Assembly: GCA_003009755.1 (NCBI GenBank)
Contig: PXUB01000042.1
Span: 730 to 64,729 of the forward strand
Direction of reading: 5' to 3'
Source: Thermoplasmatales archaeon SW_10_69_26
GTDB taxonomy: Archaea; Thermoplasmatota; SW-10-69-26
Length of the DNA stretch: 64,000 nucleotides
In this document: piece after piece, positions 3,026-19,583 of the stretch
Numbering within the stretch: position 1 is the first letter of the stretch
How the letters are laid out: each line of letters begins with the position of its first letter
Position numbers and translations under genes: made by a program
The notes under the pieces: generated by a model
What the model saw: only the letters and a program-made list of their open reading frames with translations
Told to the model about the DNA's origin: nothing
Database searches by the model: none

Positions 3026-3080
3026 CGTTCCGACGGGGATCCGCGCAACGCTTTTCCCTCCGCTGGAGCTACCTCTGGGC

Positions 3081-3800
3081 GTGCACCTCGTCCGCGACCG
3101 TCACCGCCGTGGCCCAGACAACATGGCGATCGACGAGGCCCTGCTCGAGCGAGCCGAGCCGATCGTCCGCCTGTACGGCTGGGAGCCGGCCTGCGTCACG
3201 CTCGGCTACCCCCAGGACGAGGACACCGTGGACGAGCAAGCGCTGGCCGACCGCGGTCTGGACCTGGCCCGGCGCCCCACCGGCGGCGGCTCGATCCACC
3301 ACGACGCGACCGAGGTCACGTACGCCGTCGTCCTCCCCACCGACTGGGACGGGCTACCCGGCGACCTCTTCGAGGACTACCGCTACATGAGCCGCGGCGT
3401 GCTCGAGGCTCTCCAGGCGTTGGGCGTCGATGCTAGCTACCGACGCTCGCAGGGCGGCCGGCGTGACTTCTGCTACCTGCGCGAGGCCGGCGTCTCGATC
3501 GTCGACGGCGAGGGCCGCAAGCTGTCCGGGGGCGCCCAACGACGGACGAAGGACGCCGTGCTCCAGCACGGGACCGTGATCGTCGAACGCGACGTCGAGC
3601 TCTTGGCCGACGTCTACGACGAGACCGCCGACGCCATCGAAGCCGGTGTCGGATCGCTGGCGAGCCTGGGTGTCGACGTCGACCGGGGGAGGCTCGTCGA
3701 CGAGCTGCTGGCGGCGTTCGAGCGCACGCTCGCGCCTGCCGAGGTCACCGAGAGCGGGCCCACGGCGCTGGACGAGGGCCTCGCCCGCCCCTCGGCCTAA
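3081..3800 (+). CDS. lplA: lipoate-protein ligase A family protein
   Basis: Members of this BPL/LplA/LipB family activate lipoate (or octanoate) with ATP and transfer it to a lysine of lipoyl domains in 2-oxoacid dehydrogenase complexes or GcvH. Family marks are DNMAIDEALLE near the N-terminus, the RRPTGGGSIHH lipoate-binding motif and GRKLSGGAQRR with the lysine near the active site. I start it at GTG 3081: a T-rich box A-like stretch (about 3052-3055) lies 27 bases upstream, fitting a leaderless mRNA, and the protein (239 residues) then begins just before the conserved region. Bacterial LplA has an extra C-terminal domain that is absent here; many archaea supply it as a separate LplB, which I do not see nearby. 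Confidence 0.88.
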   Translation: MHLVRDRHRRGPDNMAIDEALLERAEPIVRLYGWEPACVTLGYPQDEDTVDEQALADRGLDLARRPTGGGSIHHDATEVTYAVVLPTDWDGLPGDLFEDYRYMSRGVLEALQALGVDASYRRSQGGRRDFCYLREAGVSIVDGEGRKLSGGAQRRTKDAVLQHGTVIVERDVELLADVYDETADAIEAGVGSLASLGVDVDRGRLVDELLAAFERTLAPAEVTESGPTALDEGLARPSA

Positions 3801-5443: not shown

Positions 5444-7642
5444 CTAGGGATCCTGAGGCAGGTCGATCTCGGTCGCCTCGTCGAAGTCCCCCTCGTCCAG
5501 CGCCGCCAGCTGGTCTCTCGTCTGCCGCCAGACCTTCTCCACGCGGGTGAGATCCTGGCGCTGGTAGCGCATCCGCGGGGGTTGGCCTTCGCCGCCCGCC
5601 AGCGGGAAAAGCCCCTCGTCGCAAAGCTCCTCGAAGAGCTCGTCCGGCAGGCGAGCCCCGCGCATGTACACGAAGAACCGGTGCACGTCGACGCCGCCGG
5701 CTTCGGCCTCGTGGATGCCCGACAGCTCGATGCGTGCCACGCGTTCGTCGAGCAGCTTGTCGATCCACTCGCTGGCCTTCGCCTTGGAGGAGCGGGCTTC
5801 GTCGGGCACGTCGATGCCGGTCTGCTCGGACAGGCGGTCGAGGTGCTCGAGCTGGGCCGGCGTCGGGTGGTCGCCCTCCAGCCAACCCTCGTCGAGCGTG
5901 CGCTGGTAGGGAGCCTCCAGCCAGTCGAACTCCTCCTCGAGGAACGCGTGGTAGCTGAGCTCGCCCTCGGCGATCGCGTCGAGGGCCTCCTCCATGCGGG
6001 CCGTGTACTCGTAGTCGATCACGCGCGAGTAGCTTTCGCGCAGGTAGTCGACCAGCCGACGGCCCTTGTCCGTGGGGCGAAGCGTGCCGCTTCGCTTGCG
6101 CACGTAGCCGGCGCCGTCGCCGCGGGACTTGATGCGTTCCAGCGTCTGCCCGTACGTCGACGGGCGACCGATGCCGCGCTCCTTGAGCTCGGACACCAGC
6201 CGCCCCTCCCGGTAGCGGGCCGGCGGGTAGGTCCGCCGCGGCTCGGGGTAGGCCCGCTCCAGCGCGAGCTCGTGACCGGTCTCGAGCTCCGGCACGTCGA
6301 CCTCCTCGTACCGGTACCCGGGCTCCATCGTGCTCGCCAGCGGATCCTCGAGGTGGTCGTCGTACAGCGTCAGGAAGCCGGGATCGGTCAGCTCGTGCCC
6401 GCGAGCCTCAGCCGCGTGGCCGGCCGCGTCCAGATCGAGGATCGTCGTGCGGTACACGGCGGCCTGCATCTGGCTGGCGAGGAACCGCCAGTAGATCAGC
6501 CGGTACAGCTCGAACAGCTCCGGGTCGAGATCGTCCTCGAGGTTCTCCGGCCAGACGTCGGGATCCTCGGGCTCGGTGGGGCGGATCGCCTCGTGGGCGT
6601 CCTGAGCGCCGGCGCCCTGGTTCCACCGCCGCCCGCTGTACAGCTCCTCGCCGAAGGCTTCGCGCTGGTCGAGGGCCGACTTGGCGCGGTTGAGGGCCTC
6701 CGGGGAGACACGCGTGGAGTCGGTGCGCATGTAGGTGATGAGCGCGCGCTCGGTGCCGTCGATCTCGACGCCCTCGTAGAGCCGCTGGGCGAGCTCCATC
6801 GTCTCCTCGGGGGAGAGGTTCAGCGGCTGCCCGTCGGCGGCGTTCTGCAGGGTGTCGGTCGTGAACGGCGGCGGCGGCACGAGCTCGTCCTCGGGGTCGA
6901 CCTCGCACCACTGGACCGTGAGGCTGCCGGCCTCCGCCAGCGCCTCGACCCGATCGGTGACCTCGTCCCACGCGTCCTCCTCGATCTCGCCGTCGAGGTC
7001 GGCCGTCAACGGTTGCGGTTCCTCGGCGTCCTCGGGCTCGTGGAGGACGCGAGCGTGCAGGGTCCAGTACTCGCGCGGCTCGAAGTCCTCGATCTCCTGC
7101 TCGCGGTCGACGACGAGCCCGACCGCCGGGCTCTGCACGCGGCCCACGCTGGGGGCCCGCGGGCCCTCGGGATCGTACTTCACCATGTCGGAGAGGATGA
7201 ACCCGATCAGACGGTCGAGCACGCTCCGGGCGCGTTGGGCCTCGACCAGGTCCTCGTCCACACCGCGGGGCTCCTCGAGGGCGTCCTGGATCGCCGAGTA
7301 CACGATCGCGTTGAACGTGATCCGGTGGATCTCGGCGTCCGACGGGACGGCGGTCTCGAGGATGTCGGCCGCGATCGCCTCCCCCTCGCGGTCGGGGTCC
7401 GGGGCGAGGTAGACCTCGTCGGCGCCCTGCAGCTCCTCGCGCAGACGCGCAACCTGGCTGTCGCCGCGCCGGCGGATCGGCTGCATCTCGTAGCTGAACC
7501 CGGCCTCCACGTCCACGCCCAACCGATCGTTGGGCAGATCGCGGATGTGGCCGCCGCAGGCGATGACCTCGTACTCCCCGCGGACCAGGCGGCGGATCGT
7601 GCGCGTCTTCGCGCCCGACTCCACGACGATGACCCGGCGCAT
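5444..7642 (-). CDS. topA: DNA topoisomerase I (type IA)
   Basis: The enzyme relaxes negative supercoils by passing a strand through a transient 5'-phosphotyrosine break. The N-terminal Toprim domain shows VVESGAKTRTI and DPDREGEAIAAD (metal-binding acidic residues); the active-site motif ALITYMRTDSTRVSPEA contains the catalytic tyrosine near residue 310; GIGRPSTYGQTLERI is another family block. There are no C-terminal zinc fingers, unlike Escherichia coli TopA, and the protein ends in an acidic tail (732 residues). Its ATG follows immediately on the stop codon of the 61-residue gene upstream (TAGATG), so the two are cotranscribed. Confidence 0.93.
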   Translation of the reverse strand: MRRVIVVESGAKTRTIRRLVRGEYEVIACGGHIRDLPNDRLGVDVEAGFSYEMQPIRRRGDSQVARLREELQGADEVYLAPDPDREGEAIAADILETAVPSDAEIHRITFNAIVYSAIQDALEEPRGVDEDLVEAQRARSVLDRLIGFILSDMVKYDPEGPRAPSVGRVQSPAVGLVVDREQEIEDFEPREYWTLHARVLHEPEDAEEPQPLTADLDGEIEEDAWDEVTDRVEALAEAGSLTVQWCEVDPEDELVPPPPFTTDTLQNAADGQPLNLSPEETMELAQRLYEGVEIDGTERALITYMRTDSTRVSPEALNRAKSALDQREAFGEELYSGRRWNQGAGAQDAHEAIRPTEPEDPDVWPENLEDDLDPELFELYRLIYWRFLASQMQAAVYRTTILDLDAAGHAAEARGHELTDPGFLTLYDDHLEDPLASTMEPGYRYEEVDVPELETGHELALERAYPEPRRTYPPARYREGRLVSELKERGIGRPSTYGQTLERIKSRGDGAGYVRKRSGTLRPTDKGRRLVDYLRESYSRVIDYEYTARMEEALDAIAEGELSYHAFLEEEFDWLEAPYQRTLDEGWLEGDHPTPAQLEHLDRLSEQTGIDVPDEARSSKAKASEWIDKLLDERVARIELSGIHEAEAGGVDVHRFFVYMRGARLPDELFEELCDEGLFPLAGGEGQPPRMRYQRQDLTRVEKVWRQTRDQLAALDEGDFDEATEIDLPQDP

Positions 7643-11980: not shown

Positions 11981-12939
11981 AGAGGTCGTCGACGATCAGT
12001 GCGAGCAACGAACGGGCTCGGCGGATCCACGAGCAGACCGGCCCCACCTTCTACCTCGCCACGCGGTTGTTGCCCGAACGGGCCCGTCAGGACACGCACG
12101 TCCTCTACGCCTTCTTCCGCAGCGCCGACGAGATCGTGGACGGGGACACCACGCCCTCGGCCGCCGATCAACGCGACCGCCTGGACCGCATGCGCCGCGT
12201 GGCCCGCGGTGACCGGACGGGCGAGGGCATCCCGGCCGCCTTCGCCGACGTCCGTCGCGACAACGGGATCCCGCCCGCAGACGTCGACCGCTTCATCGAA
12301 GCGATGCAGACCGACGTCGACCAAGAGCCCTTCGAGACGTTCGCCGAGCTGCGAACCTACATGGAGGGCTCGGCCGCCGCCGTCGGCCGCATGATGGCTC
12401 GCGTCCTCGGCGCCCCCGACGACGCCGAGGTGCTGCGACGAGCCTCCGCCCTCGGCGAGGCCTTCCAGCTGACGAACTTCGTCCGCGACGTCCGCGAGGA
12501 CCACCGACAGCTCGACCGGGTGTACCTGCCCCTCGAGACGCTGCGGAAGTTCGACGTCGCTCGCGGGGACCTCGAGGCCGAGAAGGCCAGCCGCGCCCTC
12601 CGGGCAGCGGTGGGCTACGAGCTGGACCGCGCCCTCGGGTTCTACCGCGAGGGCGTCACCGGCATCCAGCACCTACCGGCCGACTGCCGGTTCCCCGTCA
12701 CCCTCGCTGCGATCCTCTACGCCGACCACCACCGCTTGATGCGCGAGCAAGGCTTGGATGTCCTCGCCCAGCGCCCCACGCTCTCCCGCAGCCGCAAGCT
12801 GTGGCTGGCCGCCAAAGCTCGCGGCCTCCGCCCGCTCAGCGACGGCCCCGTGGACCTGTTCGAACGGGCCTCGGCCGTCGATCTGCCCGAGGACGACGAG
12901 CGCCTGCGCGTGACCGTCGTCGATCCCGCCCGTCATTGA
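11974..12939 (+). CDS. crtB: phytoene synthase, start unresolved
   Basis: CrtB condenses two geranylgeranyl diphosphates to phytoene, the first committed carotenoid step. Conserved blocks are TFYLATRLLPERAR, LYAFFRSADEIVDGD (first Asp-rich motif), EAFQLTNFVRDVREDHR (second Asp-rich motif, DVREDH) and RVYLPLE. The only canonical start in frame is TTG 12067, which would remove conserved sequence, so translation must begin upstream: CTG 11974 is given here, and GTG 11999 would fit after a one-base insertion. The 3' end overlaps the convergent cruF gene by seven bases. The operator at its 5' end links it to the photoregulator. Confidence 0.85.
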   Translation: MYERSSTISASNERARRIHEQTGPTFYLATRLLPERARQDTHVLYAFFRSADEIVDGDTTPSAADQRDRLDRMRRVARGDRTGEGIPAAFADVRRDNGIPPADVDRFIEAMQTDVDQEPFETFAELRTYMEGSAAAVGRMMARVLGAPDDAEVLRRASALGEAFQLTNFVRDVREDHRQLDRVYLPLETLRKFDVARGDLEAEKASRALRAAVGYELDRALGFYREGVTGIQHLPADCRFPVTLAAILYADHHRLMREQGLDVLAQRPTLSRSRKLWLAAKARGLRPLSDGPVDLFERASAVDLPEDDERLRVTVVDPARH

Positions 12940-13757
12940 CCACCGACCAGGCCCTGGGTCTGGAACCCCTCGGCCGTCAGCAGGGCGGCCCCCACGCCGA
13001 CGGCGATCGCGGCCGGCGCGAGGTTCCCGAACGCCAGGTTGATCGCCCCCCACAGGACGACGAAGCTCACCAGATCGTCCAGCAGGAACTCGCAACCGTC
13101 CACCCGCGCCCGCAACCGCTCACGGTCGATCGTGGCCTCGACGACCCCGACCGTGACCGCCGCCGACAGGACCCAGCCGGCCACGTTCGTCCAGGGGACC
13201 TCGTGGAAGAGGCCCGGGTCCGCGTACCGCCAGAACCCGAGGCTGACGGCCGCCGGATCGAGCACGAGATCCAACGTCACCACCAAGCCCACCGCGAGCC
13301 CGACGCGCGCCCATCGCCCGGGCAACTTGCCCGTCCGCAGGCTCGCCAGAAGGTAGGCGTCGAACACGAGGGGCAAGAACAGGATCGGCAACGCGATCGG
13401 CAAGCCGCCGACGGTCGGACCCAGCGACACCTCGTACGTGAAGGAGCCATAGGGCCACCCGGTGGCTAGGGCCAAGGCCTCGATCCCGTACGTGTAGGCG
13501 GTCAACGCGATCAGGCCCACGCCCAGCCGCCGCGTCGCCACGGGCGCCAGACCGACGATCAACGGGGACCGCATCACCGTCACCCCGACGAGGATGAGCC
13601 ACGGGTTGAACGACAGCCAGTCGAGCGAAGGCGGGATCCAGCCCCGCCCGCTCGCCAACAGCAACATCGCGCCGACGAGCGGGAACACGACGGCGATCGT
13701 GAACCGGTTGTCCCGCACCACGGCATCCAGCCGGTCCGTGAGCGAGGCCGCGCTCAC
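12933..13757 (-). CDS. cruF: carotenoid hydratase of the CruF family (bisanhydrobacterioruberin hydratase)
   Basis: CruF adds water to the terminal isopropenyl groups of bisanhydrobacterioruberin to give the C50 pigment bacterioruberin. The 274-residue protein has about seven membrane segments and family blocks GWPYGSFTYEVSLGPTVGGL, PILFLPLVFDAYLLASL and LDLVLDPAAVSLGFWRYADP. GTG 13757 overlaps the stop of lyeJ (GTGA), as is usual for translationally coupled genes. It is the last gene of the crtI-lyeJ-cruF operon and converges on crtB. Confidence 0.88.
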   Translation of the reverse strand: MSAASLTDRLDAVVRDNRFTIAVVFPLVGAMLLLASGRGWIPPSLDWLSFNPWLILVGVTVMRSPLIVGLAPVATRRLGVGLIALTAYTYGIEALALATGWPYGSFTYEVSLGPTVGGLPIALPILFLPLVFDAYLLASLRTGKLPGRWARVGLAVGLVVTLDLVLDPAAVSLGFWRYADPGLFHEVPWTNVAGWVLSAAVTVGVVEATIDRERLRARVDGCEFLLDDLVSFVVLWGAINLAFGNLAPAAIAVGVGAALLTAEGFQTQGLVGGQ

Positions 13758-14596
13758 AGCCACACCCCGGGCTCCCCCGTCGCGAGCAGGCCCCCGATCG
13801 TCAACGCGGCGCCCGCCGCGGCGTTGATCCACGGGTAGGCCCAGTAGGCACGCCCGAGCGGGACGCCGGAGATCTCGATCGCGACCAGCACCACGGGGTA
13901 GATGGCGAACACCGCGGCCGCCGGCACCGACGCGAGGCTCACCAAGCCGGCGGCCACGGCCCACATCCCCAGGCAGTAGCCGACCGTCCCCCGGCGGCCG
14001 AGCACGGTCGCGGTCGTCCGCACACCGGCCCGGCGATCGGGCTCGATGTCCGGGATCGCCGAGAACGTGTGCATCGCCATCGTCCACGCCCACGCGCCCC
14101 CCATCAGCCAGGCGTCGGGTTGGTGCCCGCTCACCGTCACGTAGGCCGCCGCGCCGGGAAGGACGTACAACCCGTTGGACGCCGAGTCGAGGAACGGACG
14201 CGCCTTGAACCGCACCGGCGGCGCGCTGTAAGCCACGGACAGGGCCCCGAACCCCAGCATCCACGGCCAAGCCCCTCGCGGAAGGGCCGCCGTCAGCGCC
14301 AACCCGGCCGCCAGCGCCGCCACGATGGACGCCCAGACGCCTCGTCCACCCTGCCAGCGAGCCTCCTTGTCGTCCTTCTTCGGGTTGACCTGGTCGATGT
14401 CCGCGTCGAAGCGGTCGTTCACCCCGTAGAGGAAGACGTTGGCCGGCAGCAGGCAGAACGCGAACAGGGCCCACGGGCGCCAGGCGGCCAGCTGGCCGAG
14501 GGAACCGACACCCCAGGCCACCCCCACGAGCACCGGCCCGGCCAGGTACAGCCAGAACCGGGGCCGCGAGAGGCGGACCAGGTAGGCCCCGCTCAT
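13754..14596 (-). CDS. lyeJ: UbiA-family prenyltransferase, lycopene elongase
   Basis: LyeJ adds two C5 units to lycopene (with 1,2-hydration in haloarchaea), producing the C50 skeleton of bacterioruberin. The protein (280 residues) has multiple membrane helices and the UbiA aspartate motifs NVFLYGVNDRFDADIDQVNP (N-D-x3-D-x3-D) and AIPDIEPDRRAGVRTTATVL (D-x3-D). The ATG overlaps the crtI stop (ATGA) and the stop overlaps the cruF start. The operon context between crtI and cruF makes the elongase role much more likely than quinone or heme prenylation. Confidence 0.88.
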   Translation of the reverse strand: MSGAYLVRLSRPRFWLYLAGPVLVGVAWGVGSLGQLAAWRPWALFAFCLLPANVFLYGVNDRFDADIDQVNPKKDDKEARWQGGRGVWASIVAALAAGLALTAALPRGAWPWMLGFGALSVAYSAPPVRFKARPFLDSASNGLYVLPGAAAYVTVSGHQPDAWLMGGAWAWTMAMHTFSAIPDIEPDRRAGVRTTATVLGRRGTVGYCLGMWAVAAGLVSLASVPAAAVFAIYPVVLVAIEISGVPLGRAYWAYPWINAAAGAALTIGGLLATGEPGVWL

Positions 14597-16071
14597 CGCT
14601 CGGCCATCGCCTCCGCGGTCAACAGCCCGCTGATCAGGCACATCGGGACGCCGATGCCGGGCGTCGTGTACTGCCCGACGAAGAACAAATCCTCCATCGC
14701 GCCGGAGACGCGGTCGGGCCGCAGCGTGGCCGTCTGATCCAACGTGTGGGCCAGGCCCAGCGCGGTCCCGTCGTAGGCGTTGTAGCGGGAGGCGAAATCG
14801 TCGACCGCGAACACGCGCTCGGTCACGATGCGATCGCGCACGTCCACGCCGGTGTGCTCGGCGAGATCGGCGAGCACCCGATCGCGGAACCGCTGGCGCA
14901 GCTTGGGCCCGTCGCGGAGACCGGCCGCCACCGGCACGAGCACGAACAGGTTGCTGGCGCCCGCCGGCGCGACCCCGTCGTCGGTCTGGGAGGGAGCGCA
15001 CACGTAGTAGGCCGGGTCCTCGGGCCAGGCGGCCTCCTCGAACAGGGCATCGAAGTGACCGCGCCAGTCCGTCGGCAACACCAACGAGTGGTGAGCCAGC
15101 GGATCGATCGACCCCTCGACGCCCAGGTACAGCAGGAACGCGCTGGGCGCCCACGTCCGCCCCTCCCAGTAGTCGGCCCCGTGCTGGCGGTGATCCTCCG
15201 AGAGCAGATCCTGCTCGACGTGCGCGTAGTCAGCGTTCGTGACGACGCGATCGGGCTCGCGGTCGCCCTCGGCCGTCCGCACCCGCGGCCTGGCGCCGGA
15301 TCGATCGATGCCCGTCACCGGCGTCCCGGTCGTGAGCGTGGCGCCTTGCTCGCGGGCCACCTCGGCGACCGCGTTCGCCACGGTCGCCATGCCGCCCTCG
15401 GGATACCAGACGCCCATGTTGTGGTCGACGTGGCCCATGAGGTTGTACAGGGCCGGCGTCCACTCGGGGTCCCCGCCGAGGAACACGAGCGTGTACTGCA
15501 TGATCTTCTGCAGCTTCGGGTGCTCGAAGTGGTCGGCCACGTGGTCGGCCAGGGAGCCGAACATCGGCAAGCCCCAGGCCTGGCGAGCCACGTCGAGGCT
15601 CAGGAAGTCCCGCAGCCGCCGGCGATCCTCGTAGACGAACTCCCTCATGCCCGTCTCGTAGGATTCCCGAGCCGTCGCCAGGTAGGCGTCCAGCGCCTCG
15701 CCGGCGCCCTCCTCGTAGCTTTCGAAGGTGCGCCTGGTCTCGGCGAGGTCCGGGGTGATCTCGACGCGGTCGCCGTCCTTGAAGAAGATCCGGTAGTGGG
15801 GATCCAACTGCGTGAGCTCGAAACGCTCCTCGGGGCTGGTCCCCATGTGCTCGAAGAACGTCTCGAAGACGTCTGGCATGAGGTACCAGGAGGGCCCCAT
15901 GTCGAAGCTGAACCCGTCCTGGACGAGCCGGCTGGCTCGACCGCCGACCTGGTCGTTCTTCTCGACCACCTCGACGTCGGCCCCGGCTCGGGCGGCGTAG
16001 GCCGCGGTCGCGAGACCGCCGAACCCTCCGCCGACCGGCCACGAGGTTCGCGCATCCGGTCCACCATCCAC
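14593..16071 (-). CDS. crtI: phytoene desaturase
   Basis: CrtI oxidises phytoene stepwise to lycopene with FAD. The N-terminus has the dinucleotide-binding region VGGGFGGLATAAYAARAGAD and EKNDQVGGRASRLV; MGPSWYLMPDVFE follows, and the C-terminus has the FAD-closing block FFVGQYTTPGIGVPMCLISG. GTG 16071 gives 492 residues but leaves the unusual N-terminus DGGPDARTSWPVGGGFGG; an ATG at about 16055 followed by MREL...VGGGFGG would fit better after a small indel, so the first 15 residues are uncertain. Leads the lyeJ-cruF operon and starts 34 bases from the dispersed repeat that probably supplies its promoter. Confidence 0.9.
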   Translation of the reverse strand: MDGGPDARTSWPVGGGFGGLATAAYAARAGADVEVVEKNDQVGGRASRLVQDGFSFDMGPSWYLMPDVFETFFEHMGTSPEERFELTQLDPHYRIFFKDGDRVEITPDLAETRRTFESYEEGAGEALDAYLATARESYETGMREFVYEDRRRLRDFLSLDVARQAWGLPMFGSLADHVADHFEHPKLQKIMQYTLVFLGGDPEWTPALYNLMGHVDHNMGVWYPEGGMATVANAVAEVAREQGATLTTGTPVTGIDRSGARPRVRTAEGDREPDRVVTNADYAHVEQDLLSEDHRQHGADYWEGRTWAPSAFLLYLGVEGSIDPLAHHSLVLPTDWRGHFDALFEEAAWPEDPAYYVCAPSQTDDGVAPAGASNLFVLVPVAAGLRDGPKLRQRFRDRVLADLAEHTGVDVRDRIVTERVFAVDDFASRYNAYDGTALGLAHTLDQTATLRPDRVSGAMEDLFFVGQYTTPGIGVPMCLISGLLTAEAMAER

Positions 16072-16104
16072 GAGGGTCCCAAAAACCCCTGCTCCGACTG
16101 TGGC

Positions 16105-16272
16105 CTCGCGTTGAAGGATAAGAAACCCGGGGGGGCCACCAAGTACGCGAAGGGACGCCAGGGCACAAGGGGGAGCAGCTGCCGTGACAACGCTGCCCGG
16201 CGGTGAGTCACAGGCCCTTCGTGGCCTTGGCGATCCTTCGTGTCCTTCGCGGCCCCTGCTTAACCAGACAGC
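16105..16272 (+). repeat. dispersed 168-bp repeat with box A-like ends (long copy 1)
   Basis: This stretch matches the inverse of 62281-62447 at roughly nine of ten positions. Inside are a hairpin, GTGAC-aa-CGCTGCC-C-GGCGGTG-a-GTCAC (16187-16214), and an outer pairing CGAAGGG/CCCTTCG. One end holds TTATCC on the minus strand facing crtI, the other CTTAACC facing the DedA gene, so it may act as a bidirectional promoter. It fills most of the crtI-DedA intergenic space and has no coding potential on its own. Confidence 0.8.
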
Positions 16273-16326
16273 CCGCCGTGGCCTTCCCGACAACCTCTTG
16301 ACGGACGGACCACACTTGCCAATTGG

Positions 16327-17355
16327 ATGGTGCTGGAGGCCCTCCCCGACGTGCTGCCCTACCTGCTTGAGTTCTTCGAGCAGTACGGGCTCGTCGCCAT
16401 GTTCGTCCTCCTCGTTCTCGACGGGGCCATGCTCATCCCCGTCTTGCCGGGCGAGGCCGTGATGATCATGGCCGTCACCCAGCACGCCAGCAACATCCGC
16501 GAGCTCGCCTTCATCACCGTGTTGGCGACACTGGCTGGCATCGTCGGGAGCCTCATCCTCTACACGATGGCTCGGGTCGGCGGCCGCCCGCTGATCGAGA
16601 ACCATCCCCGGCTGTTCATGATGGACCGACGGCGCCGAGAGAAGCTCGAGGAGGCCTTCGAGCGCCCGCTCGGGCAGAGCCTCGTGTGCCTGTTGCGCGT
16701 GATCCCGTTGACGCGCATCGTGGTGAACATCCCCGCCGGGCTGGCTCGCATGGGGGTGGGCCGGTTCGTCGTGCTGTCCTCGATCGGGATGGCGATCTTC
16801 CACAGCGGGTTCATGTGGCTGGCTTACGAGTCCCAACAGTCCGGCAGCGTCGTGGCCGAGCAAGCCACGGCCCTCCAAGAGACGTACGCCACGCCCGCCT
16901 GGCAGTACCTGCAAGCCAACGAGGTCGTCGCCATCGTCGGCGTGATCGCGTTCGGCGCCTGGTTGTCGTTCAAGTCCTCGCGCCGGATGATGAAGCATCC
17001 GCGCGGGGCGATCACCTCGATCCTCGGCTGGCTGACCGTTCGCGTGCTCGTGCTCGGCACCCTGACCCTCTGGGGCGCTCTCGTGTACGACCCCCAGCTG
17101 CTGTACGAGGTCGCGCTGGCCGGCGGCCTCGACGTCCCCGCCATCGCCCTCCAGGTCGGACTGCCGCCCGTTCGCCTGCTGGCCTACTTCGGCCTGATCA
17201 CCTGGACGCTGGGCATGGTGTTGTGGGGCCTGGAATCGGTCGCCCGCAGCCGCCGCGACGAGGCCGAGCGACGGCATGCCGAGGCCGAGGAGGCCGACGA
17301 GCTGCCCGACCCCGAGATCGAACCCGTCGGCGAGTACTCGAGCCCGCCGGGGTAG
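16327..17355 (+). CDS. DedA/VTT-domain membrane protein
   Basis: The 342-residue protein has an N-terminal DedA (SNARE-associated, VTT) domain: LLEFFEQYGLVAMFVLLVLDG, IPVLPGEAVMIMAV (the P-x-P-G-E re-entrant motif) and LLRVIPLTRIVVNIPAGLARM (R-x-x-P-x-x-R-x-x-x-x-x-x-A-G). DedA proteins act in lipid or proton-linked membrane homeostasis; some flip polyprenyl carriers. A C-terminal extension has three further membrane helices and an acidic cytoplasmic tail (AEAEEADELPDPEIEPVGE), which is longer than bacterial DedA (about 200 residues). Its promoter is probably the CTTAACC in the repeat upstream. Confidence 0.85.
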   Translation: MVLEALPDVLPYLLEFFEQYGLVAMFVLLVLDGAMLIPVLPGEAVMIMAVTQHASNIRELAFITVLATLAGIVGSLILYTMARVGGRPLIENHPRLFMMDRRRREKLEEAFERPLGQSLVCLLRVIPLTRIVVNIPAGLARMGVGRFVVLSSIGMAIFHSGFMWLAYESQQSGSVVAEQATALQETYATPAWQYLQANEVVAIVGVIAFGAWLSFKSSRRMMKHPRGAITSILGWLTVRVLVLGTLTLWGALVYDPQLLYEVALAGGLDVPAIALQVGLPPVRLLAYFGLITWTLGMVLWGLESVARSRRDEAERRHAEAEEADELPDPEIEPVGEYSSPPG

Positions 17356-17884: not shown

Positions 17885-18273
17885 CCGCGGGCTCGCGGTG
17901 AGAGCGCGACGACTGCATGGTCCTCGAACGGATACGGCTCGTCAGAGCCGCACGAATCACGAGGAGCAAGCCGTTCGCGGGGCTGCATTGGCACATCGGG
18001 GCGCTCGTCTCGTGGTACGACGGTTCCCGCGAGATGGTCGTTGCTCGGCGCCGACCGTCGAGCGAGTCCGGCCCCCTTTTTGGGCCGGACGACTTACGAG
18101 GAGCGGGCCGGCCGGGACGGGGACACTCGTTTCCGCCGTGGGACGGTGGTCTCGTGGTATGACGGCTCCCGTGAGAAGACCGGTGTCGATCGTCCGGTCT
18201 TCGAGCGAGTACGGCTCGTCAGAGCCGTACGAATTACGAGGAGCTAGCTGTTGGCGGGTTGTATTCGCACGGC
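17885..18273 (+). repeat. tandem degenerate tRNA-Val-like units carrying two-hairpin inserts
   Basis: Three units of about 113-142 bases precede the intact tRNA-Val gene. Unit 3 (18140-18273) begins GGGACGGTGGTCTCGTGGTA and unit 2 (17998-18139) begins GGGGCGCTCGTCTCGTGGTA, close to the tRNA 5' half (GGGGCGGTGGTCTAGTGGTA). Both then reach GGCTCCC/GGTTCCC, where the intact tRNA goes straight on with TTACGAGGAGC, but the units carry a roughly 62-base insert first. Each insert forms two hairpins: unit 3 AAGACCGG/CCGGTCTT (18176-18201) and GTACGGCTC/GAGCCGTAC (18209-18230); unit 2 GATGGTCG/CGACCGTC (18033-18059) and GTCCGGCCC/GGGCCGGAC (18066-18090). Unit 1 (to 17997) keeps CGGCTC/GAGCCG (17935-17950). 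Their T-arms and acceptor 3' strands are not tRNA-like, so they are not functional tRNAs. Confidence 0.7.
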
Positions 18274-18345
18274 GGGGCGGTGGTCTAGTGGTATGACGGC
18301 TCCCTTACGAGGAGCAAGCCGCAGGTTCAAATCCTGCCCGCCCCA
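18274..18345 (+). tRNA. tRNA-Val (anticodon UAC)
   Basis: The 72-base sequence folds as a full cloverleaf: acceptor GGGGCGG/CCGCCCC with discriminator A, D-loop with GGTCTAGTGGTA, anticodon stem GCTCC/GGAGC with loop CTTACGA (anticodon TAC), and T-arm GCAGG-TTCAAAT-CCTGC. No intron is present, unlike the related degenerate units directly upstream. CCA is not encoded. Confidence 0.95.
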
Positions 18346-18354
18346 TTCGTAGCA

Positions 18355-18471
18355 GGGCAGGATTTGAACTCTGGTTCAATCGCGAAGGGCCGGAGGCTAC
18401 GCGCGGTCCTTCGCGAGAGCCCGAACGCGCGTCGATAGGTGCAACGTTCGGGTGAAATCCTGCCCGCCCCA
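18355..18471 (+). ncRNA. structured RNA-like element B, copy next to tRNA-Val
   Basis: Ten bases after tRNA-Val begins an element closed by an 11-bp helix, GGGCAGGATTT (18355-18365) with AAATCCTGCCC (18455-18465). Inside are a short hairpin GAAC-tctg-GTTC (18366-18377), a 13-bp stem (18380-18392 with 18404-18416, one G-U) and an 8-bp stem CCCGAACG/CGTTCGGG (18420-18427/18445-18452): a four-way, cloverleaf-like fold. Its last bases AAATCCTGCCCGCCCCA repeat the 3' end of tRNA-Val. Two homologues follow tRNA-Gln with different stem sequences that still pair. Confidence 0.65.
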
Positions 18472-18833
18472 CTCGCCGCTGACTAAGCCGGCCCGTCTCC
18501 GTCCGCCACCGGGTCGCCTGCACGGGGTCTTGTCACCTCGGTGACAACGGAACTACTTTCGTCGTTCGCCATGGCGTTGAGGCAAGCGGTCGCGTCCGTC
18601 CCCCCAACACGTCCAACCCCCGTTCCTGCAACACCCCCGGACCGACTCCTGTGCTGTTCCTACCCCCGGGCGCGACCGCTTGTCCCCACCTTTCCCGTGA
18701 CCCAAGCTCCGACCAGCCGGCGGTGGGCCACCGCCGCTCGGAGGCGGCGGTCATGTGCCTGTCCGCCAAGCGGGAAGCTTAAGGGCGGAGGTCGGCTGTC
18801 CTCAACGCGCGGACCGCTTGCGTCCCGCAGACC
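18472..18833. other. intergenic stretch between the Val and Gln arrays; no gene recognised
   Basis: These 362 bases hold a hairpin TTGTCACC-tc-GGTGACAA (18530-18547), a 12-bp inverted repeat CAAGCGGTCGCG/CGCGACCGCTTG (18583-18594 and 18671-18682), four runs of five or six C between those arms (18600-18667; G-runs on the minus strand), a palindrome CGGCGGTGGGCCACCGCCG (about 18718-18736) and a palindromic CTTAAG (18778-18783) that could drive tRNA-Gln or a minus-strand RNA. I searched by eye for RNase P and SRP RNA core motifs and saw none. A 78-codon minus-strand frame lacks protein-like character. Confidence 0.4.
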
Positions 18834-18906
18834 AGCCCGGTGGTGTAGCGGCCAATCATTTCGGCCTTTGGAGCCGAATACGCAGGTTCGAATCCTGCCC
18901 GGGCTA
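18834..18906 (+). tRNA. tRNA-Gln (anticodon UUG)
   Basis: The 73-base cloverleaf has acceptor AGCCCGG/CCGGGCT with discriminator A, anticodon stem TCGGC/GCCGA with loop CTTTGGA (anticodon TTG), and T-arm GCAGG-TTCGAAT-CCTGC. CCA is not encoded. Its 3' end (GAATCCTGCCCGGGCTA) is repeated at 19231-19247 and 19567-19583 at the ends of two tandem structured units. Confidence 0.95.
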
Positions 18907-18907
18907 T

Positions 18908-19109
18908 GGGATCGAGGACCTGCTCCTCAGCCTCTCCCGTCGCCAGCGTCTCGCCAAGGCTGGCTGACGGTGTCGCGCTGCGTCGAAAGCCCGCAGGGGG
19001 ATTTCTTCCTCGCGCTCCTTGTCAGACAGCCTTGGCGCGGGCCCCGCCGGGCCCGCCCGGATGGGAGACGCTGGCTCGGTCCGAGGCATCGTCGCCGGTC
19101 CTCGGTCCC
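18908..19109 (+). ncRNA. structured RNA-like element A, copy 1
   Basis: Nested helices: P1 13 bp (18908-18920 with 19097-19109, one G-U), P2 10 bp CCAGCGTCTC/GAGACGCTGG (18943-18952/19065-19074), P3 16 positions with one mismatch GCCAAGGCTGGCTGAC/GTCAGACAGCCTTGGC (18953-18968/19021-19036), and P4 hairpin GCGGGCCC-cgcc-GGGCCCGC (19037-19056). The loop above P3 keeps TGTCGC and AAGCCCGCA in both copies. No known RNA family comes to mind. Confidence 0.6.
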
Positions 19110-19132
19110 TGCGGATACCGCTGGTCGTCAGC

Positions 19133-19247
19133 GGGCAGGATGAGAACCGCAGGTTCGATCGTGAGAGCCGGTGGAAGAGCGGGCGGTTCTCACGAGCGGC
19201 CGAACCGGCGTCCACTGCTCGGTTCGGCCAGAATCCTGCCCGGGCTA
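19133..19247 (+). ncRNA. structured RNA-like element B, Gln copy 1
   Basis: Closing helix GGGCAGGAT/ATCCTGCCC (19133-19141/19233-19241), hairpin GAACC-gca-GGTTC (19144-19156), 12-bp stem (19159-19170/19184-19195, one G-U) and 9-bp stem GGCCGAACC/GGTTCGGCC (19198-19206/19221-19229). It ends with the acceptor strand CCGGGCTA of tRNA-Gln. Confidence 0.65.
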
Positions 19248-19249
19248 TA

Positions 19250-19448
19250 CCGGTCGAGTCCTCGTTCCTCAGGTTCTCCCGTCGCGAGCACCTCGCCAGC
19301 CGCCGCTGACGGTGTCGCTCTGCTTCGGAAGCCCGCAAGGGGATTCCTGCATCGAGCTCCTTGCCAGCGACGGCTGGCGCGAGCTGAAGGCTCGCCCAAC
19401 GGGAGGTGCTTACTCGGTCCGAACACATCGTCACGAAGACTCGACCGG
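19250..19448 (+). ncRNA. structured RNA-like element A, copy 2
   Basis: Same architecture as copy 1 with different stem sequences: P1 16 positions with one mismatch (19250-19265/19433-19448), P2 AGCACCTC/GAGGTGCT (19287-19294/19403-19410), P3 14 positions with one mismatch (19295-19308/19365-19378), P4 GCGAGC-tgaag-GCTCGC (19379-19395). Confidence 0.6.
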
Positions 19449-19470
19449 TGCTCCAATCGCGGATCGTAGA

Positions 19471-19583
19471 GGGCAGGATGAGAACCTTGGTTTGATCCCG
19501 AGGCGCGGTGTCGACCGCACGCGTCTCGGGAGCGGCCGAACCGGCGTTCACTGCTCGGTTCGGCCAGAATCCTGCCCGGGCTA
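19471..19583 (+). ncRNA. structured RNA-like element B, Gln copy 2
   Basis: Closing helix GGGCAGGAT/ATCCTGCCC (19471-19479/19569-19577), hairpin GAACC-tt-GGTTT, 12-bp stem TCCCGAGGCGCG/CGCGTCTCGGGA (19496-19507/19520-19531) and GGCCGAACC/GGTTCGGCC (19534-19542/19557-19565). The middle stem differs almost completely from copy 1 but is fully paired. Confidence 0.65.

Follow-up and report, generated by a model that had tools for sequence, protein, structure and literature searches.

The window analysed here, a stretch of 64,000 nucleotides, corresponds to positions 730-64729 of contig C42 of the source genome G000, an assembly of 2.8 Mb in 49 contigs with 95% completeness. It contains two intact tRNA genes, tRNA-Val(tac) and tRNA-Gln(ttg), and a search of the window against Rfam matched no family beyond the tRNAs. 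The preliminary description of both genes as flanked by tRNA-derived repeats was confirmed, on a larger scale than first described, and is extended here by the inverted T-arm copy closing the unit, the genome-wide scale, the cases at protein genes and a precedent in E. coli. The features of the locus, in window coordinates, are as follows.

~17893-17997, forward strand: truncated upstream unit A0, with hairpin TACGGCTC-GTCA-GAGCCGCA and anticodon 3' strand TCACGAGGAGC
17998-18139, forward strand: upstream unit A1, with a copy of tRNA-Val 1-31 (17998-18028), hairpins at ~18036-18056 and ~18066-18090 and TTACGAGGAGC at 18094-18104, ending in a leader
18140-18273, forward strand: upstream unit A2, with a copy of tRNA-Val 1-31 (18140-18170), hairpins at 18175-18202 and 18209-18230 and TTACGAGGAGC at 18234-18244, ending in a leader
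18274-18345, forward strand: tRNA-Val(tac) (ARAGORN; Rfam RF00005, 71.2 bits)
18355-18471, forward strand: downstream unit of tRNA-Val (element B), with the inverted T arm from 18355, a hairpin at 18380-18416 and the one following it, and the direct copy of the gene's own 3' end at 18455-18471
18834-18906, forward strand: tRNA-Gln(ttg) (ARAGORN; Rfam RF00005, 61.6 bits)
18907-19132, forward strand: structured spacer of Gln unit 1, with a hairpin repeat (18912-19042) present elsewhere in the genome
19133-19247, forward strand: tRNA-Gln downstream unit 1 (element B), 3'-end copy at 19231-19247
19248-19470, forward strand: structured spacer of Gln unit 2, with the second copy of the hairpin repeat (19254-19384)
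19471-19583, forward strand: tRNA-Gln downstream unit 2 (element B), 3'-end copy at 19567-19583

A downstream unit, about 110 nt in length, consists of an inverted copy of the tRNA T arm, a T-arm hairpin, two hairpins of free sequence and a direct copy of the tRNA end, in that order. The unit starts with the inverted T stem/acceptor 3' strand, the short hairpin reads GAACC..GGTTC, hairpin 1 and hairpin 2 are linked by GA or GC, and the direct copy extends from about T-loop position 59 to the last tRNA base; in many archaeal units, the T-loop TC is replaced by GA at the junction. Each of the three downstream units in the window terminates with an exact 17-nt copy of the 3' end of its own tRNA. 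The tRNA-Val gene is followed by a 9-nt trailer and one unit of 117 nt, and tRNA-Gln by two units of 113-115 nt, each preceded by a structured spacer of about 225 nt. Two full upstream units (element A) and a truncated third precede tRNA-Val, the full pattern comprising a copy of tRNA positions 1-31, two hairpins and the 3' anticodon strand TTACGAGGAGC, which corresponds to a split in the anticodon loop. Archaeal tRNA introns were rejected as an explanation, the real tRNAs being intact and the split copies lying outside them.

The hairpin repeats of the two spacers form a third repeat family of about 100 nt (..GACGGTGTCGC..; window 18912-19042 and 19254-19384), with relatives at C43:7548, C1:63171, C45:37744, C7:44075, C48:19920 and C9:20372, several of them away from any detected tRNA. 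Elsewhere in the window, frames resembling a carotenoid cluster (phytoene desaturase-like and prenyltransferase-like, 12933-17277) and topoisomerase VI were recognised by eye. The topoisomerase VI-like frames, together with a transcription factor B gene, mark the source genome as archaeal.

All 41 tRNA loci of the source genome were included in the copy counts. Within 700 nt downstream, 17/41 tRNAs have a direct copy of their own 3' end, compared with 0/41 in a control using another tRNA's end; the copies are therefore not a product of chance. Inverted copies are present at 15/41 loci and own 5' copies upstream at 6/41, and nearly all units are without ORFs. A covariance model of the downstream units, R1, scores the tRNA-Val unit at 83.2 bits, this unit being built into the model. 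R1 has 19 matches in the genome at E<=1e-8, including the units from which it was built, with E-values that are rough and partly circular for those units; 17 of the 19 lie within 1.5 kb behind a tRNA on the tRNA strand, a zone expected to hold 3.3%, its share of the genome.

At the looser threshold of E<=1e-3, 20 of 47 R1 matches lie far from tRNAs, and hairpin modules without gene-end copies are present elsewhere in the genome. Both observations, along with integrase elements at the same tRNAs, are consistent with passive scars, whereby tRNA-targeting elements integrate and leave, and the tRNA ends are colonised by REP-like hairpin repeats that unequal recombination amplifies. This origin is judged quite improbable, given the position of 17/19 best matches behind tRNAs on the tRNA strand, the fixed order of inverted T arm, hairpins and gene end in genomes as distant as E. 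coli, Paenibacillus and Woesearchaeota, and the lack of a Y1 transposase in G000, G010 and G024. REP/RAYT palindromes and fungal double-hairpin elements are short paired hairpins in many copies, but are without the gene-end copies and inverted core of the units. Mobilisation of the RAYT/REP type was rejected, as no Y1 (TnpA-REP) transposase (PF01797) was found in these three genomes or in G001.

Covariation was assessed on 14 downstream units of the source genome, covering two hairpins and 20 pairs. Paired cells amounted to 97.4%, compared with 74.4% in shuffles and 31-47% in slid controls. Double changes were observed in 63 cells vs 18.5 in shuffles, of which 0/500 reached 63, and involved 14 pairs vs 8.9, bearing out the earlier claim that the helices stay paired while their sequence changes. 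Behind the unit-bearing tRNAs of seven genomes, hairpin mismatches read on the tRNA-sense strand comprised 25 G.T vs 7 A.C (p 0.002; 21 and 5 in the first version of the count), and flanks without units gave 17 and 9 (p 0.17). These strand-biased mismatches, few in number, point to one folded strand, either RNA or single-stranded DNA. The preliminary description had attributed the pattern to RNA structure or palindrome templating; conserved structure with compensatory change stands, whereas symmetric palindrome templating is disfavoured because of the excess of G.T over A.C.

Template switching is known to generate copies in direct-inverted-direct order, and this order is observed in the units. 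Replication template switching at quasi-palindromes might then have made the triplets and equalised the hairpin arms without any function. Already weakened, this explanation appears extremely improbable: the copies stop at gene ends and not randomly, the layout is kept across domains, the mismatches are strand-biased and not symmetric, and the change of T-loop TC to GA recurs at the junction in many units and in E. coli.

The covariance-model search of archaeal genomes, proposed as a check in the preliminary description, found units with this layout in further genera of the phylum, namely G021 (tRNA-Pro, tRNA-Met), G010 (tRNA-Val) and G024. Direct own-end copies occur at 14/40 tRNAs in G021, 11/28 in G024 and 5/20 in G010, and the other-tRNA control gave none. 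The genomes are draft MAGs, and counts for G010, G024, G071, G075, G389 and G390 cover part of their tRNAs. G001, from the source genome's own family, has direct copies at 1/29 tRNAs only, with integrases present. In one woesearchaeal genome, 12/37 tRNAs carry direct own-end copies, and R1 also matches Woesearchaeota, Clostridia (22 bits) and Aenigmatarchaeota. A strict motif, which misses most units, matched in three genomes only among 389 of the phylum. A T-arm motif scan of the genomes of 84,980 species returned 73 stretches, about 45 of which are estimated to arise by chance; stretches directly behind tRNAs with the full layout readable occur in Woesearchaeota, Aenigmatarchaeota, Nanoarchaeia, Paenibacillus, Clostridia and a deltaproteobacterium. 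A Paenibacillus genome in which many tRNAs are clustered showed no excess of direct copies (12/42 vs 13/42 in the control) and had inverted plus direct copies at one tRNA vs 0 in the control, so units are few in that bacterium. The viral collection IMG/VR showed no motif enrichment, and viral carriers were rejected because none of its 9 pattern matches has a tRNA in front; no similar phage records were found.

A weak RtT match (27.1 bits, cut-off 45) within one of the clostridial units pointed to E. coli K-12 tyrTV. The earlier statement that no described RNA family has this layout proved wrong, as the rtT repeats of E. coli K-12 tyrT/tyrV (rttR, tpr; Rfam RtT RF00391) share it and likewise form tandem units behind a tRNA. 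The tyrTV locus contains four units, each with an inverted T arm GGGGAAGGRTGAGAA, GGTTCGA or GGTTCGG, hairpins, and GAGTAATCC or GAATAATCC just before the exact tRNA-Tyr end. Compared side by side, the rtT order of inverted T arm (GGGGAAGGATGAGAA), GGTTCGA, hairpins and GAGTA with the exact tRNA 3' end is the archaeal order of inverted T arm, GGTTC, hairpins and end copy. The closing stem and hairpins of rtT fold as in the archaeal units, the T-loop dinucleotide becomes GA in the inverted copy of both, and where rtT repeats the 3'-terminal ~19 nt of its tRNA in tandem, the own-end copies of the source genome measure 16-19 nt. In contrast, rtT is known at tRNA-Tyr only, whereas the archaeal units occur at many tRNAs, at 5' ends and at protein genes. 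Rfam RtT (gathering 45 bits) had no match in the window at gathering and none in the related loci L029 and L093-L096 at E<=1, and R1 had none in the tyrTV locus (L356) at E<=1. By score, the archaeal units fall outside Rfam RtT, and their kinship with rtT is architectural. The rtT repeats have so far been regarded as a local peculiarity of a single tRNA operon and, to our knowledge, have been unexplained since their description; rttR is known as a processed trailer RNA whose 3' end is tRNA-like. The open-licence PMC literature yielded nothing matching the archaeal units.

The units could accordingly be structured RNA within the tRNA transcript. The inverted copy would have two possible partners, the 3' strand of the real tRNA and the distal copy, and would give either a switch or a processed trailer RNA that ends like a tRNA. 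Their sense orientation behind the tRNA, the covariation of the hairpins, the excess of G.T over A.C on the sense strand and the annotation of E. coli rttR as a small RNA all favour such a role, as does tRNA-Asn, whose proximal, inverted and distal copies share one T-stem change between G024 and G071. We nevertheless hold an RNA role to be unlikely, though a serious candidate, since the same architecture lies behind the protein genes described below, mirrored units occur at tRNA 5' ends, the distribution is patchy among related genomes, with none at some tRNAs and several at others, and whole units are present or absent between congeners. Should the units be RNA, a large class of RNA has gone unrecognised in tRNA trailers.

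The two protein genes bearing the unit architecture at their 3' ends in the source genome encode transcription factor B (TFB, PF00382) and an M48 peptidase (PF01435). The distal TFB copy spans 50 nt and is 98% identical, with one synonymous base difference; the stop codon is TAG in the proximal and TAA in the distal copy, and similarity ends at the stop. This is the pattern expected of an element that supplies the end of the gene itself. The TFB and M48 units led to the rejection of a tRNA-only bistable RNA as the whole explanation, and they argue against a purely tRNA-based RNA role; the suggested cloverleaf decoys are unsupported. Presence and absence were resolved at tRNA-Gln of G024, which has one extra unit relative to its congener G075. 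The flank past the distal copy of the first G024 unit equals the flank directly behind G075 tRNA-Gln with a score of 32, whereas the proximal flanks score 10 and the random-flank 99% level is 12; therefore, one whole unit is precisely present or absent. The earlier proposal of a tRNA-anchored mobile RNA-only element is supported in part by this difference, the tandem units and the protein-gene 3' ends; "RNA-only" is unsupported. Deletion between direct repeats by homologous recombination could also produce the presence/absence.

Tyrosine-recombinase elements that target tRNA genes use the T loop/3' end or the 5' half, the gene being restored by a carried copy (PMC8371274). A comparable pattern is found in the units, with boundaries in the T loop or anticodon loop and at gene ends, a synonymous TFB copy and an empty site. 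Tyrosine-recombinase elements were located within the arrays of the source genome, sharing the target ends of the units, at tRNA-Gly (~4.4 kb), tRNA-Glu (~8.4 kb) and tRNA-Phe (~13.4 kb), with units at or next to the far end; the units differ in their length of ~110 nt, their lack of coding content, their structure and their inverted core. The tRNA-Gly element encodes a tyrosine recombinase, an HTH-methylase and a BamHI-like endonuclease (PF02923) at 1412-5122 of L242 (G000 C2:32000-41000), with a unit at its right end and 97-nt repeats that are 96% identical. Its gene-bearing part is flanked by a 16-nt inverted-T-arm repeat (GCCAGGCCGGGATTTG / GCCCGGCCGGGATTTG; L242:1347-1362 and 5491-5506, 15/16 identical), as if the integrase had used the inverted T arm of the unit, and not the tRNA, as its site. 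At tRNA-Glu and tRNA-Phe, units lie at or beyond the distal tRNA copies and may belong to earlier arrays that were displaced. In G024 and G021, integrase elements have attR ends free of units, so the link between integrases and units is not general, and it may be only the tRNA sites that integrase elements and units have in common. Casposon-type target duplication was rejected, as no terminal inverted repeats were seen by eye at the element ends and the duplication stops at gene ends.

The favoured explanation, to which we assign about an even chance, is that the units are recombining DNA modules that lack ORFs, are anchored at gene ends and contain a folded site, in the architectural class of E. 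coli rtT. It draws on direct observations of the layout, covariation, own-gene specificity, recurrence in two domains, protein-gene targets, one empty site and integrase elements in the arrays. The near absence of units from G001, which has integrases, and the lack of motif enrichment in the viral collection count against it, and the G.T bias also fits RNA. Beside a folded site, each unit would carry a substitute for the end of its target gene, which in a tRNA runs from the T loop to the last base. Pairing of the inverted T arm with the direct copy would let the tRNA-sense strand form a four-way junction, its arms being the target-derived stem, the T-arm hairpin and the two free hairpins. Inverted core and direct copy would thereby rebuild a double-stranded T-arm-like site, with two hairpins protruding at the crossover point. 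On entry at the T loop or gene end, the carried copy would restore the gene and the original gene end would be pushed downstream, so that tandem arrays build up. A unit with the wrong end would break the gene on entry, which would explain why the gene-end copy is exact while the hairpins drift. We infer that a recombinase of the tyrosine-integrase type moves the units, probably reading a folded single strand in much the way attC is read by the integron integrase, and that transfer of units from one genome to another takes place at the same gene. The attC sites and cassette arrays of integrons likewise keep structure as sequence drifts, form tandem arrays at an anchor and possibly fold strand-specifically. 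However, the units adopt a four-way fold where attC is single-hairpin and nearly all are without ORFs; IntI and attI are not known for the units, the recombinase search covering generic PF00589 only.

A broader proposition, tentative and somewhat doubtful, is a cross-domain class of minimal, mostly gene-less cassettes that a recombinase would recognise through a folded single strand, with specificity from the carried gene-end copy and rtT as the best-known member. Were this class real, the arrays at tRNA ends would constitute a system that resembles integrons without being derived from them. Should the units prove to be folded recombination sites, the ends of tRNA genes would harbour a cassette system that collects mobile and defence genes, one array holding the BamHI-like restriction system. 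With this architecture seen in archaea, DPANN and several phyla of bacteria, the rtT oddity becomes a general, testable phenomenon; in one genome, about 40% of tRNA genes and two protein genes are followed by it. No locus of the source genome is richer than tRNA-Ser(tga) (C1:123698-123781; L047:2199-2283), which is preceded by three units and followed by a copy in which tRNA positions 35-71 are duplicated as well. Tandem hairpin unit clusters (..GCGAGCATC..GATGCTCGC..) were also observed at L253:11259-11740, behind a protein gene, and at L246 ~3050-3760.
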